Source: a virus
Direction: 5' to 3' (one strand)
Virus record (IMG/VR): IMGVR_UViG_3300014838_000323
Span: 1 to 24,290 of that record
DNA: 24,290 bases
Shown here: in pieces, positions 5,106-12,539 of the stretch
Layout of the letters: each line of letters begins with the position of its first letter
Numbering within the stretch: position 1 is the stretch's first letter
Made by a program: the position numbers and the translations under genes
Notes under the pieces: generated by a model
Told to the model about the DNA's origin: nothing
Seen by the model: the letters and a program-made list of their open reading frames with translations, nothing else
Database searches by the model: none

Positions 5106-6365
5106 ATGGGTGCAGTAGCTTCAACCCTTCTTACCTACGGCGACGTATCGCGGCGGGACGATTGGCAACACAACTTGTCGTCCTAAATGCTTTGTGTTAA
5201 GATGGGGACATGATTAAAAACTGCGCTATTTGCAACTTTAATTTTTGTCCTCATTGTCAGCATTGCAAACAAAAATCGGATGAAGTCAGGGGACTTCCCT
5301 CAATGGGACAATCCTGAACTAAGCCGAAGGTTAAAATCTTCGGAAAGCGCAACGACTAGATATTGAAACTCGAAAGAGAATATAATATATCCAAGAGCGT
5401 CCGACACCAGCAATGGTGATGATATAGTCTGAACACTATGGCAACATAGTGAAGTAGAAATTAAAAAATCTACGATAACATATTTGGTAGTTCTCAATGC
5501 AATTGAGATCCTTACGGCCACCGAGTCGCAGATAATGAACCAGCTTGGTAAGACGACGGCTATCGACACGATCCACTCCTTCTTGACCGACACATTGCTC
5601 ACACCGGGCAGCGCTGCAGTTGAGATGGGTGCGGCGTATTCCTATTCGACTTTGACGACTCCCTCACGACAGACAAATATCGTGGAGGAAATCGCCATTC
5701 CGATTCAGGTCGCGCGTCCGCAACAGGTCATCCAGCACTATCACGGTCAGAACGAATTGCAGAGGCAGTTGAATAAGGCTTTGCTTGCATGGGGCAACGC
5801 AGCCGAGTTCGACCTAGTCCGTAGCTCGCTCACTTCCGGCTTGTCCGGAACGGCCGCGAGGATGTTGGGTATCCAGAACTGGATCGCCGGAGTATCGAGC
5901 GCTTATACCAACCAGACATCTGGAACGGTATGGTCGTCCTCGATACTCGATGCCCTGATGATGAACTGTTGGACGAACTCTAACGGCGATGTTGCGACGG
6001 ACCTTTACATGGGCGGCAACATGAGGAAGCAGACTGATTATTTCACGCAGAAGACGAATGTCGTCGTGAATAATCCTTCTGAGATTTCCGACGTCGTGAA
6101 GACGGTGACAACGTACGAGACTTCCTTCGGAACCCTCTCGATACATAAACACCGTTTCGTTCAGGATGTGTCCTCAACGGTCAATCAGGTCGTTATGGGT
6201 ATCCGACCGGAGAAATTGAAGGTTGCATTCCTTGATAAGCCCTATATACAAACTGATCTGTCTACGACAGGTCCGTACACGCCTCGGGCGGTATATGGTT
6301 CGCTTACCTTGGAAGTCCGCAATCCTCTTTCTAACTTCTACGCTAGCGGTTACGCCGCGGCCTAG
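5106..6365 (+). CDS. Major capsid protein, split by a group I intron
   Basis: Predicted exons are 5106-5184 and 5488-6365. Joined, they give 957 nt and 318 residues of an HK97-fold capsid protein resembling the SU10/DUF5309 family. Exon 1 encodes MGAVASTLLTYGDVSRRDDW and six more residues. It ends with a T that joins TA of exon 2 to make a Leu codon. Across the junction the protein keeps the family order: a GDV-RR-[ED]D start, a hydrophobic stretch, TATESQIMNQLGK, then a segment ending FLTDTL and TPGSAAVE. The C-terminal half contains TAARMLGIQNWI, NMRKQTDYF and FGTLSIHKHRFV, as in SU10-like capsids. Without splicing, exon 1 stops after 26 codons at TAA (5184-5186). The TTG at 5484 would be a poor start and would lose the conserved N-terminus. 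A terminator follows. Confidence 0.85.
5185..5487 (+). ncRNA. Group I self-splicing intron in capsid gene
   Basis: The roughly 303-nt element has group I landmarks in order. P1: GTCCT at the exon end (5180-5184) pairs with GGGAC (5205-5209), with the required U.G at the 5' splice site (U5184/G5205). Core: the run GGGACAATCCTGAACTAAG (5305-5323) resembles the conserved P3/P4 strand. P3: GGAC (5306-5309) with GTCC (5399-5402). P5: CCGAAG (5324-5329) with CTTCGG (5338-5343). P7: GACTA (5354-5358) with TAGTC (5425-5429). P8: CACC (5405-5408) with GGTG (5415-5418). P9: CACTATG, GCAA tetraloop, CATAGTG (5434-5451). Between P7 and P3' is a hairpin with ATATT/AATAT and CTC-GAAA-GAG, like P7.1/7.2 of subgroup IA. 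The last intron base is G5487, as expected. P10 pairing looks weak. Confidence 0.9.
5210..5317 (+). CDS. Cysteine-rich micro-ORF inside the intron
   Basis: An ATG at 5210 opens a 35-codon frame whose start reads MIKNCAICNFNFCPHCQHCK. The five cysteines fall in a CxxC-x4-CxxCxxC pattern that could bind zinc. The frame ends at 5315-5317 inside the conserved P3/P4 strand, and it is not in the capsid frame. GATGGGG lies just upstream, but that is also part of the P1 internal guide. It might be a decayed remnant of a homing-endonuclease zinc finger, a genuine micropeptide, or chance. The region also folds (GAAGTC/GACTTC at 5282-5297), so RNA structure may explain it. Confidence 0.25.
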   Translation: MIKNCAICNFNFCPHCQHCKQKSDEVRGLPSMGQS

Positions 6366-6449: not shown

Positions 6450-6782
6450 ATGTCAGTCTTTATCAAAGACATTCCTATCGAACGAATTGTAAAAGACAAA
6501 CTCATCGGCTGTGTACAAGCCTATGTAAAATTATTTCCGGAAGAGAATAAGCAGATGATAGACCAGGTCAATAAAAAAAGATGGTTTCTTGATGATATGG
6601 AATATGGAGCGTCTCCTACTGATTCAGTCATCGTGCGAGCGCTGTTCGAGATCCCCGAGACTCTTAACGCGATAATCATAAAGGGATTGAGCGAGAGCGA
6701 GATGCAACAGTTCAGGGGATTGAAGGGGTCGAGATGGTTTGCCAAAGAATTTCCTCAGTTTAGGACTCCCAGAGAGATATGA
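6450..6782 (+). CDS. Hypothetical protein leading the glycosyltransferase operon
   Basis: The 110-residue protein begins MSVFIKDIPIERIVKDKLIG and is mixed alpha/beta with many charged residues. No family was recognised. An upstream ATG at 6393 is in frame but lies within the terminator stem and ahead of the promoter, so the ATG at 6450 is chosen. That ATG is predicted to be at the first base of the transcript. The stop overlaps the start of the next gene (ATGA at 6779), tying it to the glycosyltransferases. It could be a short virion protein or an enzyme partner; the sequence does not say. Confidence 0.7.
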   Translation: MSVFIKDIPIERIVKDKLIGCVQAYVKLFPEENKQMIDQVNKKRWFLDDMEYGASPTDSVIVRALFEIPETLNAIIIKGLSESEMQQFRGLKGSRWFAKEFPQFRTPREI

Positions 6783-9175
6783 ATAAATTAGCTTTAGCCA
6801 TGATTGTGAAGGGCGATAAGAAAGAATCCGACGTTCTTTATCGTTGTCTTCAAAATGTTCTGCCTCATGTCGATATGGCCTTTGTCACCATTACCCATGA
6901 AAAAGGAAAGCCAAGAAACAAGGATGTTGAATCTGTTTGTAATCTTTTTAACGACACTGAGATTCAAGTCGTCATTTCCGATTTTGAATGGATAGATGAT
7001 TTTGCCGCGGCAAGGAATTTTAATTTCTCTCAAGTCCCTAAAGAATATACTCATATCCTATGGTGCGATGCAGATGACTCTTTCCGTGGCCTTGAAAGGA
7101 TAAAGAGCATAATTCAAAAGGACAGTTTGAAGGATAAGCCCGCGGACGGCTTCGGCATGTGGTATCTGTATCATTTTGACCAACACAAGCAGGCCGATGT
7201 CGTTCATAAGAAGACGATGATATTGCGGAATCCTATCGAGAATAAATGGGTCGAGTGGAAAGGCCGTCTCCATGAAGATCTGATACCGAATATCGTTCCG
7301 GAGATAACCATGATAGACAAGTATTTTAACGGAGGAATAGACCGTATGCACCTTGTCGATGAATCCGAGAATAAGGAAAAGGTCTTTAGGAATGTCAGGA
7401 TTTCAAAGAGCGCCTTGGACGAAGACCCTAAGGAACCGAGGAACTATTTGAACTATGCCGCTTCTCTCATTGGGGCGGCTAGGTACAAGGAAGCCGCGAA
7501 GACGTATCAAGACTTCATCGAAAGGAGCGGTTCCGAGGAAGAGAAGTATATCGCTCGGCTTCGTATCTCCGAGGCATTACAAAAGACCGGGGATAGGGAA
7601 GGTTCGCTAGAGTCTGCTTTCATTGCCCTTGGCATGAGACCGCAGTACCCGGATGGATACTTTAATCTGGGACAGCTCATGTATCGCTATGGACGACTGG
7701 ATGAGGCGGAGATTTATATCCTCATGGGACTGAAGATAAAGCCGCAATATAACTCCATCGTGGTCTATAACCCCCGTGATTATGATTATAACCCGATGAG
7801 GATGCTGATGAATGTCTATTTGGACAAAGGCAGACCTGATCTCGGGTTGCCTTTTATGAAAGCGTGCCTTGAGATTTACCCGAATAATAATAAACTGAAA
7901 GACGAATATGAAGCGCTTAAAATCGAGACCGAAAGGCTCACCCAAGTCGTATCGCACTTTGAGGAGTGGAAAAAGATGTCAGACGAGGAGTTCAAAAAAG
8001 CCATCGAGAAATTGCCGGTCGATCTTCGTTCCCACCCTGGGGTCTGCTCTCTTTATAATCAACGATTTGTCAAACAAACATCTACTGGTAAAGAGCTGGT
8101 CATTTACTGTTACCCCACGGGCTTTGACTTTAACCCTGAACTCTTCCAAAAGGTTGGATTCGGCGGTTCGGAAGAAGCTGTCGTCAATCTATCCAAAGAG
8201 CTTGCTGAAATTGGCTGGGATGTTACGGTCTACAACCGTTGCGGAGTAGAGCCTAAGAAATACGGCAAAGTCTGGTGGAAACCCTTCTGGATGTTCAATC
8301 GCGCGGATGTCGTGGATGTGCTTGTCATATGGCGCTCGCCTGCGATGTTGAATCATGAGTTGGGAGCCAAGAAGGTCATCCTTGACCTGCATGATGTCGT
8401 TCCCGAGCAGGAGTTCACAGCGGAGAGATTGGCTCGGGTTGATAAGATAATGGTAAAGACGAAAGCCCATCGCTCCTTGTTCCCTGATATTCCTGATAAG
8501 AAATTCGCTATAATCCCGAATGGTCAGGATAATTCTCTTTTTAAGGGAAATATAAAGAAAGACCCGTATCTCATCATCAATACTTCTAGTCCTGATAGAA
8601 GCATGGATGTGTTGCCCGAATTGTTCATGGAAATCAAGAAGTATGTTCCGCAGGCGAAGATGTCTTGGGCTTATGGCTGGAATAACTATGACGATTTTTT
8701 TAGAGGCGATCCGCTCCGCATGAAATGGAAGGATGAGGTTGAGAGACAGATTAAGAAAGCCGGTATCAAGTCTCTCGGAAAGATACCTCAGAAAGATGTC
8801 GCTAAGCTCTATGAAGAGGCTACGATACTCGCTTATCCATCCGAGTTTTTCGAGATCGACTGTATATCCGTGAAGAAGGCTCAAGCTGCCGGTTGCATCC
8901 CTGTGTCCACTGATTTTGCGGCGTTCGATGAGTCGATTCAGTACGGCTATAAGGTCCATTCAAAAAAGAATAATAAGAATTGGGCGAGCCAGTATCAGTT
9001 CGGATTCGGCATCACTGACCCGAAGATGAAAAAGGAGTTCGTACAGTATTGTGTTAATATTCTTAAATCAAAAGAAGACCCGCGCAGGATAGAGGCGGCA
9101 AAGAAGTGGGCGAGGAACTTCGATTGGGATAAGATAGCCAAAAGATGGAATCAAGTATTACAAGAGAAGAATTAA
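6779..9175 (+). CDS. Fused glycosyltransferase: GT2 - TPR - GT4
   Basis: The 798-residue protein joins three parts. Residues 1-190 resemble a GT-A family 2 glycosyltransferase, with AMIVKGD at the start and the metal-binding DADD at 97-100 in ILWCDADDSF. Residues about 217-385 look like tetratricopeptide helices (NYLNYAASLIGAARYKEAAKT, PDGYFNLGQLMYRYGRLDEAE). Residues about 438-795 resemble a GT-B family 4 enzyme, with the GGSEEAVVNLSKEL nucleotide-side loop (462-475), an IPNGQD motif, and a late EFFEIDCISVKKAQAAGCIPV sugar-nucleotide loop. It presumably transfers two sugars to a phage or host target; the substrate cannot be read from sequence. The start overlaps the previous stop, and a 57-aa ORF overlaps its 3' end. 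Confidence 0.85.
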   Translation: MNKLALAMIVKGDKKESDVLYRCLQNVLPHVDMAFVTITHEKGKPRNKDVESVCNLFNDTEIQVVISDFEWIDDFAAARNFNFSQVPKEYTHILWCDADDSFRGLERIKSIIQKDSLKDKPADGFGMWYLYHFDQHKQADVVHKKTMILRNPIENKWVEWKGRLHEDLIPNIVPEITMIDKYFNGGIDRMHLVDESENKEKVFRNVRISKSALDEDPKEPRNYLNYAASLIGAARYKEAAKTYQDFIERSGSEEEKYIARLRISEALQKTGDREGSLESAFIALGMRPQYPDGYFNLGQLMYRYGRLDEAEIYILMGLKIKPQYNSIVVYNPRDYDYNPMRMLMNVYLDKGRPDLGLPFMKACLEIYPNNNKLKDEYEALKIETERLTQVVSHFEEWKKMSDEEFKKAIEKLPVDLRSHPGVCSLYNQRFVKQTSTGKELVIYCYPTGFDFNPELFQKVGFGGSEEAVVNLSKELAEIGWDVTVYNRCGVEPKKYGKVWWKPFWMFNRADVVDVLVIWRSPAMLNHELGAKKVILDLHDVVPEQEFTAERLARVDKIMVKTKAHRSLFPDIPDKKFAIIPNGQDNSLFKGNIKKDPYLIINTSSPDRSMDVLPELFMEIKKYVPQAKMSWAYGWNNYDDFFRGDPLRMKWKDEVERQIKKAGIKSLGKIPQKDVAKLYEEATILAYPSEFFEIDCISVKKAQAAGCIPVSTDFAAFDESIQYGYKVHSKKNNKNWASQYQFGFGITDPKMKKEFVQYCVNILKSKEDPRRIEAAKKWARNFDWDKIAKRWNQVLQEKN

Positions 9176-9318
9176 AACAACTATTCCGCGAGGAATATCC
9201 AGGCGCTGAAGACACGCTCGATTTAGTCGTGGATATTTGTTTTATCGAAGAAAAATACAGGAAGTTTTCAAAAGACGAATGGAAATCTTGGATACATAAA
9301 GCGAAAAATCATCTATGA
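9145..9318 (+). CDS. 57-aa hypothetical protein between glycosyltransferases
   Basis: This small frame starts MESSITREELKQLFREEYPG and ends WIHKAKNHL. It overlaps the end of the GT2-TPR-GT4 gene by 31 nt, in another frame, and its TGA overlaps the ATG of the next glycosyltransferase (ATGA at 9315). It fills the only gap between the two enzymes, and the junction type matches other coupled pairs, so it is probably real. The protein looks helical and charged. No family was recognised. Confidence 0.65.
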   Translation: MESSITREELKQLFREEYPGAEDTLDLVVDICFIEEKYRKFSKDEWKSWIHKAKNHL

Positions 9319-10205
9319 AAATCGCATTTATCTGGCAAGGTATATCAGGTCGTTATGGCCAATGGAAAGACGGCCTCTATCAGGCTATGCAGATCATCGG
9401 TAAGAAGCACGATGTTCATCTATTCGAGCCGGAAGGCAATATAGAGTCATTCAAGCCCGATTGGGTTCTGTATTGGGAGTCTCCGGCCACGGCTCATGGA
9501 AAAGATAAAAAGAATTGGGATAAAGTGTGCAATCTTCCGTTCAAGAAAGCCCTTTTATATGCCGGTGGAGAAGTGGACGCGATGGCTGTTAAGGACTTCG
9601 ATCATGTTTTTATCGAGAGCCAGGTGGACATGGAGACATGCGAACGATTGGGTATTCCTCATTCGAGGGCATTTGGAATAAATGATGAGATAATGAAGTC
9701 GCAGATTCAGCCGAAGATTTGGGACGGAATGCAACAGGCGACTTGTGCCGCATGGAAAAGGACATGGCTGATGACGGAAGCTTTGAAAGAGAAGTCTTTA
9801 GTCTGCGGAAGATTCCAAGAACACGACCCGGCCTGTTTTGAAAGGGCTACGACTCATGGAGCGTTGGTATTGCCAGAGCAATCCGCGGAATCGGTCTGTA
9901 GCCTCTTGAACGCCTCTAGGTGCCTTGTACAGACCTCTAGTGGGCAAGGTGGAGGACAACGAGCAACTCTCGAGGCCATCGCCTGTGGCATACCCGTTAT
10001 TGCCATGACTGATTCCCCAAAAAACTGTGAGTTCGTCAGGGAGAGTGGTTATGGTCTCATCTGCGAGCCTAAGGTTGAGGCGATCAAGGAATCTATTAAG
10101 GAAATCAAGAGCAATCAGTGGAACATCGATGATGGGGTGAGTTACATCAAAAAGAATTGGTCTGCGAAGAAATACGCGGATGATCTTCTTAAAATCCTAG
10201 AATGA
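9315..10205 (+). CDS. GT-B glycosyltransferase (group 1-like)
   Basis: The 296-residue protein starts MKIAFIWQGISGRYGQWKDG, a typical GT-B N-terminal beta-strand with a glycine loop. It has WVLYWESPA and LLYAGGEVD segments in the first Rossmann domain. The C-terminal domain holds a donor-binding region SSGQGGGQRATLEAIACGIPVIAM (208-231), with E220 in the usual GT4 position, followed by NCEFV and YGLICEP. It is shorter than most GT4 enzymes (350-400), which suggests a compact phage form. The gene sits in a run of ATGA-coupled genes, so it is likely made together with the neighbouring enzymes to build one glycan. Donor and acceptor are unknown. Confidence 0.8.
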   Translation: MKIAFIWQGISGRYGQWKDGLYQAMQIIGKKHDVHLFEPEGNIESFKPDWVLYWESPATAHGKDKKNWDKVCNLPFKKALLYAGGEVDAMAVKDFDHVFIESQVDMETCERLGIPHSRAFGINDEIMKSQIQPKIWDGMQQATCAAWKRTWLMTEALKEKSLVCGRFQEHDPACFERATTHGALVLPEQSAESVCSLLNASRCLVQTSSGQGGGQRATLEAIACGIPVIAMTDSPKNCEFVRESGYGLICEPKVEAIKESIKEIKSNQWNIDDGVSYIKKNWSAKKYADDLLKILE

Positions 10206-10564
10206 ACTACCCTCTTTCAGAACTCATTGACCGCTATTCGATACTGCTCTTGAAAAAAGAGCGCTTGCCCGAGGACAAGAGCCTTGGCCTTCAGCTCTCG
10301 CTATTAAAGTCTGCGATTAGGGCTTACAACTATCCATGGTCTTTTTTATTCGTAGATAAGTTTCTGAAAGTGAACGGCAAGATTTGGGATTTGGAATCAG
10401 ACATCAGGAAGGGCAGGGAGAAGCTTCTGGGTCTAACTGAGGTCGGTAGGAGAGCGATAGCTATCCGGGAACTCAACAAGGAACGGATCTCAATCAAGAA
10501 CGATGTTGCTAAAAAGGTCGGAGATTTTCAGGACATCAAAATAGACCATGCCAGTCAGGGTTAG
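10202..10564 (+). CDS. Glycosyltransferase-associated small helical protein
   Basis: This 120-residue protein begins MNYPLSELIDRYSILLLKKE. The ELIDR-[YL]-[ST]-IL-LK pattern resembles small helical proteins of the DUF6165-like type often found beside glycosyltransferases in phages and bacteria; that resemblance is from memory and not tested. The rest is helical and basic. Both ends overlap enzymes (ATGA at 10202 and a 17-nt overlap at 10548), so it likely works with them. No catalytic motif is visible. Confidence 0.65.
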   Translation: MNYPLSELIDRYSILLLKKERLPEDKSLGLQLSLLKSAIRAYNYPWSFLFVDKFLKVNGKIWDLESDIRKGREKLLGLTEVGRRAIAIRELNKERISIKNDVAKKVGDFQDIKIDHASQG

Positions 10565-11225
10565 TGTAATCAGCGTGAGCATTCGGCCAAAGGGTCTGGA
10601 TATAATCCAGAAGTGCCTTGCTGAACAGACCTTTCCATTCGAGGATTTTGAGTGGCTTACAGAACTTTCCGTGCCGCCTAAATGCAATTATGATTTGAAC
10701 AAGGCGTATAATCGAGCGCTTCGCAGGGCTAAGGGAGAGCTTGTCGTAAGTTTGCAGGACTATATCAAAGTCACTCCACAATACTTGGAGAAGTTCTGGA
10801 AAGCCTATCAGGAAAATCCAAAGACATTTTTTACCGCGCCGGTGGGAAAGACTGATAAGGAAGATTTCACAGGAAACATCCGTTGGGACTGGAGAGCCTA
10901 TAAAGACGCGAAGCCGGACTGGAAGTGCTGGGAGATAGACTCTGGCGCGGCTCCTAGGCAAGCACTGTTCGATATCGGGGGGTTTGACGAGGAACTGGAT
11001 GGCAAGTGGTCATGCGACAATATCAATGTGGGTTTCAGGGCTGATAAGTCTGGATATAGATTCATGAACCTTTTTGACAATCCCGCGGTGGCTTATGATC
11101 ACGATGCTTTCATCCCTAATCCTTTTAGGAAGGTCGGAAAGGATTTTGAGAAAGTAGTTCAATTCAACGCCCAAAGAATGAGGGAGATTGAGATGGGCGA
11201 ATTGAAGATTAACTACTTGTATTGA
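10548..11225 (+). CDS. Family 2-like glycosyltransferase with altered DxD
   Basis: The 225-residue protein has a GT-A fold pattern: RVSVISVSIRP at the N-terminus, a helix with YNRALRRAKGELVVSLQDYIKV (55-76) where the metal-binding DxD usually sits, then DSGAAPRQALFDIGGFDEELDG (131-152), which is the typical acceptor-side GGFDE motif. DNINVGFR (157-164) and YDHD (183-186) follow. The expected D-x-D is LQD here, so catalysis may be metal-independent, use a different residue, or be lost. The stop codon TGA (11223-11225) lies inside the next promoter (TTG-TAT-TGA). It ends the glycosyltransferase operon. Confidence 0.78.
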   Translation: MPVRVSVISVSIRPKGLDIIQKCLAEQTFPFEDFEWLTELSVPPKCNYDLNKAYNRALRRAKGELVVSLQDYIKVTPQYLEKFWKAYQENPKTFFTAPVGKTDKEDFTGNIRWDWRAYKDAKPDWKCWEIDSGAAPRQALFDIGGFDEELDGKWSCDNINVGFRADKSGYRFMNLFDNPAVAYDHDAFIPNPFRKVGKDFEKVVQFNAQRMREIEMGELKINYLY

Positions 11226-12251: not shown

Positions 12252-12539
12252 ATGATTTCTAAACTATCTCCTCCGGAGTTCAACCGCTTACGCCGATTGA
12301 GCCAAGACGGGATTCCAGACGCTAAATTGATGGAGCTGTTCTGCATCTCTCGCTCCACCGTGGAAAGATACAAGTACGAGAGCATTCGGGAGATTTCAAG
12401 ACGGGTCCAACGCAACAGGTATAAGCAGGAGAAGTCCTGCTACAAATGCGGTGGATCTCTGAAAGATCATCCCAAATGCCTCGTCTGCGAGATACTCATC
12501 CATGGCAATGAGCAATACTGCGAGTCCCATAAGCCATAG
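12252..12539 (+). CDS. Helix-turn-helix / zinc-ribbon protein, possible regulator
   Basis: The 95-residue protein has an N-terminal helix-turn-helix pattern: a segment around LSPPEFNRLRRLSQDG, then IPDAKLMELFCISRSTVERYK (21-41), which resembles the recombinase/Hin-type or sigma-like HTH that reads DNA. After an Arg-rich linker (RRVQRNRYKQEK), C63xxC66 and C76xxC79 form a zinc-ribbon pattern, with C90 and H93 as further candidate ligands. It is the only obvious DNA-binding regulator in the window. It is flanked by a terminator upstream, and its TAG stop is fused to the 37-bp promoter repeat. It may regulate that promoter family, or it may be an endonuclease subunit; neither is shown. Confidence 0.72.
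   Translation: MISKLSPPEFNRLRRLSQDGIPDAKLMELFCISRSTVERYKYESIREISRRVQRNRYKQEKSCYKCGGSLKDHPKCLVCEILIHGNEQYCESHKP

Follow-up and report, generated by a model that had tools for sequence, protein, structure and literature searches.

In cluster J mycobacteriophages, spliced group I-type introns have been described in the capsid gene of LittleE and in the tail gene of BAKA (PMC3706429). The LittleE intron was considered 'most likely' to be group I, and its splicing was demonstrated by RT-PCR and N-terminal sequencing (PMC3706429; JF937101). A capsid-gene intron of the group I type is also attributed to the lactococcal phage Tuc2009, as cited in the same paper, and group I introns are numerous in huge gut phages, where metatranscriptomes reveal their splicing (PMC12363816).

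The locus analysed here resembles that of LittleE in that a major capsid gene is split, exon 1 ends in U and the intron ends in G. It differs in that the LittleE intron is ~820 nt long and contains an endonuclease gene in the opposite orientation, and in that the LittleE capsid belongs to PF05065 instead of PF17236 as in the window (i.e. the whole 24 290 nt stretch analysed, from IMG/VR record IMGVR_UViG_3300014838_000323 of an uncultured phage). BLAST comparison of the window's intron and capsid with the LittleE capsid region revealed no relationship and no notable DNA similarity. The BAKA intron is, like the window's, short (265 bp), devoid of a homing endonuclease and located in a virion gene, a likeness by description; the host gene there is a tail gene, and the phage lineage is another.

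The best explanation of the window's sequence, to which we assign a probability of about 0.93, is that a phage IA-like group I intron without an endonuclease gene splits an SU10-type capsid gene after codon 19 and is spliced at 5162/5487. It adds to the known group I introns one that is well bounded and that lies in a gene ranking among the most heavily expressed in phages.

A group I core within an SU10-type capsid gene

The host gene codes for an SU10-type major capsid protein, as originally proposed: PF17236 (SU10_MCP) scores 136.5 bits against a cut-off of 24.1 (E = 1.7e-39). Exon 1 (5106–5162; on the + strand, like all features of this gene and its intron) comprises 19 codons, ends in ...SRRDD and resembles the starts of intron-free homologues such as L002 (MAIASTLLTYGDVSRKED). 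It is intact and conserved, with the family-invariant residues Y11, D13 and D19 kept, despite the in-frame stop TAA (5184–5186) that the intron places behind it. Exon 2 (5487–6365) starts with VVLNAIEIL and is delimited by the PF17236 match and by homologues.

When the whole window was searched against Rfam 15, a single match rose above its family's cut-off, to the group I model RF00028 at 5175–5451 on the + strand (71.2 bits, E = 1.6e-16; curated cut-off 50 bits); the match spans the full model (1–253) and was recovered on rescanning a short stretch. Running this model had been proposed as a check on the original prediction of a group I intron at the capsid locus, which the above-cut-off match bears out. 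The group I catalytic core (P3–P8, with the P7/P3 pseudoknot) is present. In the Rfam alignment, P3 is formed by 5276–5282/5398–5404, P4 by 5286–5290/5313–5317, P5 by 5296–5299/5305–5308 and P7 by GACUA 5354–5358 and UAGUC 5425–5429, which enclose the 3' strand of P3 and P8 (CACCA 5405–5409/UGGUG 5414–5418); P6 and a P7.1/P7.2-like insert fall within 5276–5404 (alignment and direct reading of the sequence). P9, with a GCAA loop (5434–5440/5445–5451), is seen in the sequence, the fold and the alignment, and P9.1 (GUAGA 5454–5458/UCUAC 5469–5473) lies 3' of it. P3, P5, P7, P8 and the GCAA-capped P9 had been recognized at the outset (P4 can be added), and both core strands quoted at that time are found in the sequence. 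A 39 nt insert with a CUCGAAAGAG hairpin (5359–5397), located between P7 and the 3' strand of P3, suggests subgroup IA (td/Twort-like). The G+C content is 38% in the intron versus 58% and 52% in the exons, and 0.4% of equal-size segments of the contig are as low; this is as expected of acquired DNA, albeit a structured RNA could differ too. Two combinations of intron-core patterns scanned across IMG/VR gave no match.

Three glycosyltransferase-like genes, one of them with TPR repeats, follow the capsid gene at a short distance within the structural module (6779–11225), and two related loci, L055 and L056, share with the window a glycosyltransferase-like gene in such a position. Elsewhere in the window are a gene for a small protein that combines a helix-turn-helix of the resolvase type with a C-terminus resembling a zinc ribbon (12252–12539), and a long open frame cut off by the end of the contig (21830–24289), whose Ser/Thr/Gly-rich product, with repeats like NTAIGYQSLYANTTGFQNT, is trimeric adhesin- or tail-fibre-like. 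A capsid search of prokaryote genomes returned one 25-residue fragment (QHYHGQNE..RQ), encoded in a MAG of Candidatus Staskawiczbacteria (L051:5990–6075) and closely followed there by a serine recombinase. This capsid-like fragment may be a prophage remnant, and gives a faint hint of Patescibacteria as hosts that is too little for host assignment.

Splice sites and predicted product

Candidate junctions were enumerated under three requirements: T preceding the 5' site, G preceding the 3' site, and an open frame. SRRDD followed directly by VVLNAIEIL was obtained from 5162/5486 alone. This sole U/G site pair restoring the D-V-V-L of the homologues defines, together with the RF00028 match, an intron of 324 nt (5163–5486); its 3' end reads AACATATTTG, with G5486 as the terminal G before GTA. 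Homologues 50–61% identical to the capsid were collected, 13 IMG/VR loci at first and then 35 by profile search (overlapping sets, several loci being near-duplicates). Because the search patterns came from exon 2 only, the profile search was unbiased against genes broken at the position of the window's intron (site 1). In all 35 loci, zero residues separate the two blocks joined by the 5162/5487 junction: [TS]YGD....D runs straight on into [VI]V[LM]..[VI]E, with D-[VI]-V at the intron point (the exceptions to this pattern are L044, one residue shorter, and L047, with S in place of D). The intron-free homologues that had been suggested as a further check therefore exist, all 35 capsid loci being uninterrupted at site 1, and no second intron was seen there in any other capsid locus fetched. 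They align unbroken to the spliced product only; the suggestion that unbroken alignment to the unspliced frame might speak against an intron is inapplicable, since that frame stops at the TAA.

P1 (5155–5184) pairs the exon end GGGACGAU (5155–5162) with GUCGUCCU (5177–5184). Its 8 pairs end in U5162.G5177, the 5' splice site, and no other U in 5120–5199 has a better helix ending in U.G. Its strength was equalled in 23 of 5000 dinucleotide shuffles of the 60 nt downstream, and its base-pair probability in the thermodynamic ensemble is 0.91–1.0. In the minimum-energy fold, a long imperfect hairpin (5188–5267) represents the P2 domain. Against this account, Rfam sets the first hairpin elsewhere (5179 onwards), though too far downstream and with several non-standard pairs, and P10 is weak (AGUU 5489–5492 with AACU 5172–5175, by eye).

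In the folded precursor RNA, with exon 1 held to the internal guide by P1, guanosine would attack after U5162; attack by U5162 after G5486 would join GAT to GTA. Removal of the 324 nt is predicted to yield a capsid protein of 311 residues with the junction-spanning peptide ...DDVVLNAIEILTATESQIMNQLGK.

A second intron site in related capsid genes

The capsid genes of two relatives, L046 and L047, are interrupted ~130 codons further on, after ...SGTAPxMS, and taking out 582 nt (L046:1895–2476) or 626 nt (L047:1881–2506) restores SGTAPxM-SGIIEA. Each of these introns holds an HNH_2 gene; use of the HNH_2 protein as query revealed that the capsid genes of L055 (2937–3504) and L056 (2808–3443) are broken at the second site too, frame restoration being shown for L046 and L047. 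In all four of these group I-like introns the exon end is able to pair with a guide 3' of the HNH gene, giving a P1. The pairing is supported by L056, because exon and guide change together there (AUGCGU/GCGCAU versus AUGAGU/GCUCAU). L047 alone was scored by Rfam, at 28.7 bits, which is below the cut-off, so that group I status rests on P1, the terminal U and G, the restored frame and P7/P3/P8 recognized by eye. These introns share with the window's the SU10-type capsid lineage, a P1 ending in U.G and a 3' terminal G; they are unlike it in position, length (568–636 nt), the HNH_2 gene in the P1 loop and a different core. None of them is a copy of the window's intron, and they make the lineage useful for the study of intron invasion of structural genes.

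Alternative readings

The original prediction set the intron at 5185–5487 (303 nt), with a P1 formed by GUCCU 5180–5184 and GGGAC 5205–5209. These ends likewise keep the frame open and that P1 also ends in U.G, but the 5184/5488 junction gives SRRDD-WQHNLSS-LVLNAIEIL, and WQHNLSS occurs in none of the 35 homologue loci. Moreover, the helix has just 5 pairs, was matched or bettered in 353 of 5000 shuffles and has a pairing probability of 0.0; imposing it on the fold costs ~14 kcal/mol, and its 3' strand lies in GGGGAC (5204–5209), which pairs inside the P2 hairpin. We regard this placement as most improbable. With the homologues and P1 putting the intron at 5163–5486, the earlier ends were off by 22 nt at the 5' site and 1 nt at the 3' site, and the seven extra residues of the 318-residue capsid then predicted are intron sequence: the family N-terminus is restored, as had been claimed, up to residue 19, and is lost over the next seven residues of that version. 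Reading by eye can misplace splice sites by tens of bases and alter the predicted protein. It is also very unlikely that the intron is dead, or that the capsid is made unspliced, e.g. from TTG 5484 with exon 1 as a relic. The 293 amino acid ORF starting there (MVVLNAIEIL) does hold the entire SU10_MCP match, but it has no apparent ribosome-binding site 5' of its TTG, exon 1 has stayed intact and conserved, and so has the catalytic core; translation of exon 2 alone was rejected on these grounds as the main route to the capsid. As far as can be judged from sequence, conserved exon 1 and the intact core strongly imply splicing in the infected cell, and an active intron is plausible on the same basis. 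Gene callers will pick a wrong start for such capsids and truncate them.

The absence of a homing endonuclease gene had been anticipated, and none is recognizable in the intron, whose sole content is an ATG ORF of 35 codons (5210–5317) with three CxxC motifs (MIKNCAICNFNFCPHCQHCKQKSDEVRGLPSMGQS) and no Pfam match. This Cys-rich ORF is possibly a remnant of the zinc finger of an HNH enzyme, or a product of chance. A doubtful, albeit possible, reading is that an HNH homing endonuclease was recently lost or acts in trans on an intron mobile now or until recently, the ORF being what is left of the enzyme's N-terminal finger. In the four second-site introns the HNH proteins begin, a short way into the intron, with fingers of CxxC...CxxC-like pattern, and an ORF of at least 25 amino acids with three CxxC motifs arose in 0 of 5000 shuffles; however, this test was chosen after the ORF had been seen, no HNH sequence can be aligned, the relatives' introns have another site and a different core, and no HNH domain or gene was found among the window proteins scanned. 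We would also hold it unlikely that in this lineage the SU10-type capsid gene has been entered repeatedly by unrelated group I introns (at two sites or more), with the site-1 intron a stable endonuclease-less resident, the Cys-rich ORF the last trace of its enzyme and capsid output possibly dependent on splicing. The site-1 intron itself is probably a resident without a mobility gene of its own, and perhaps a deletion derivative of an endonuclease-bearing intron.

Comparison with known introns

Scanning of IMG/VR with a P7–P9 pattern retrieved terL introns only. Those of L052 and L053 have a P7–P9 strand nearly identical to that of the window's intron (37 of 39 and 39 of 43 bases, respectively), and their 3' ends, GAACATATTG and GAACATAATTG, resemble its own; in both, an HNH-like reading frame closely precedes the 3' part of the intron. 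The terL intron of Staphylococcus phage 6ec is 72.6% identical to the window's over 104 bases. All three differ from it in being lodged in terminase genes. A literature search on group I introns in SU10-type capsid genes, with thin coverage of subscription journals, surfaced only papers on one Pseudanabaena cyanophage. Phage capsid genes already have precedents as hosts of group I introns in LittleE and Tuc2009, and the window's intron is, allowing for a possible earlier report of this type, a new SU10-type representative of an already known class of elements.
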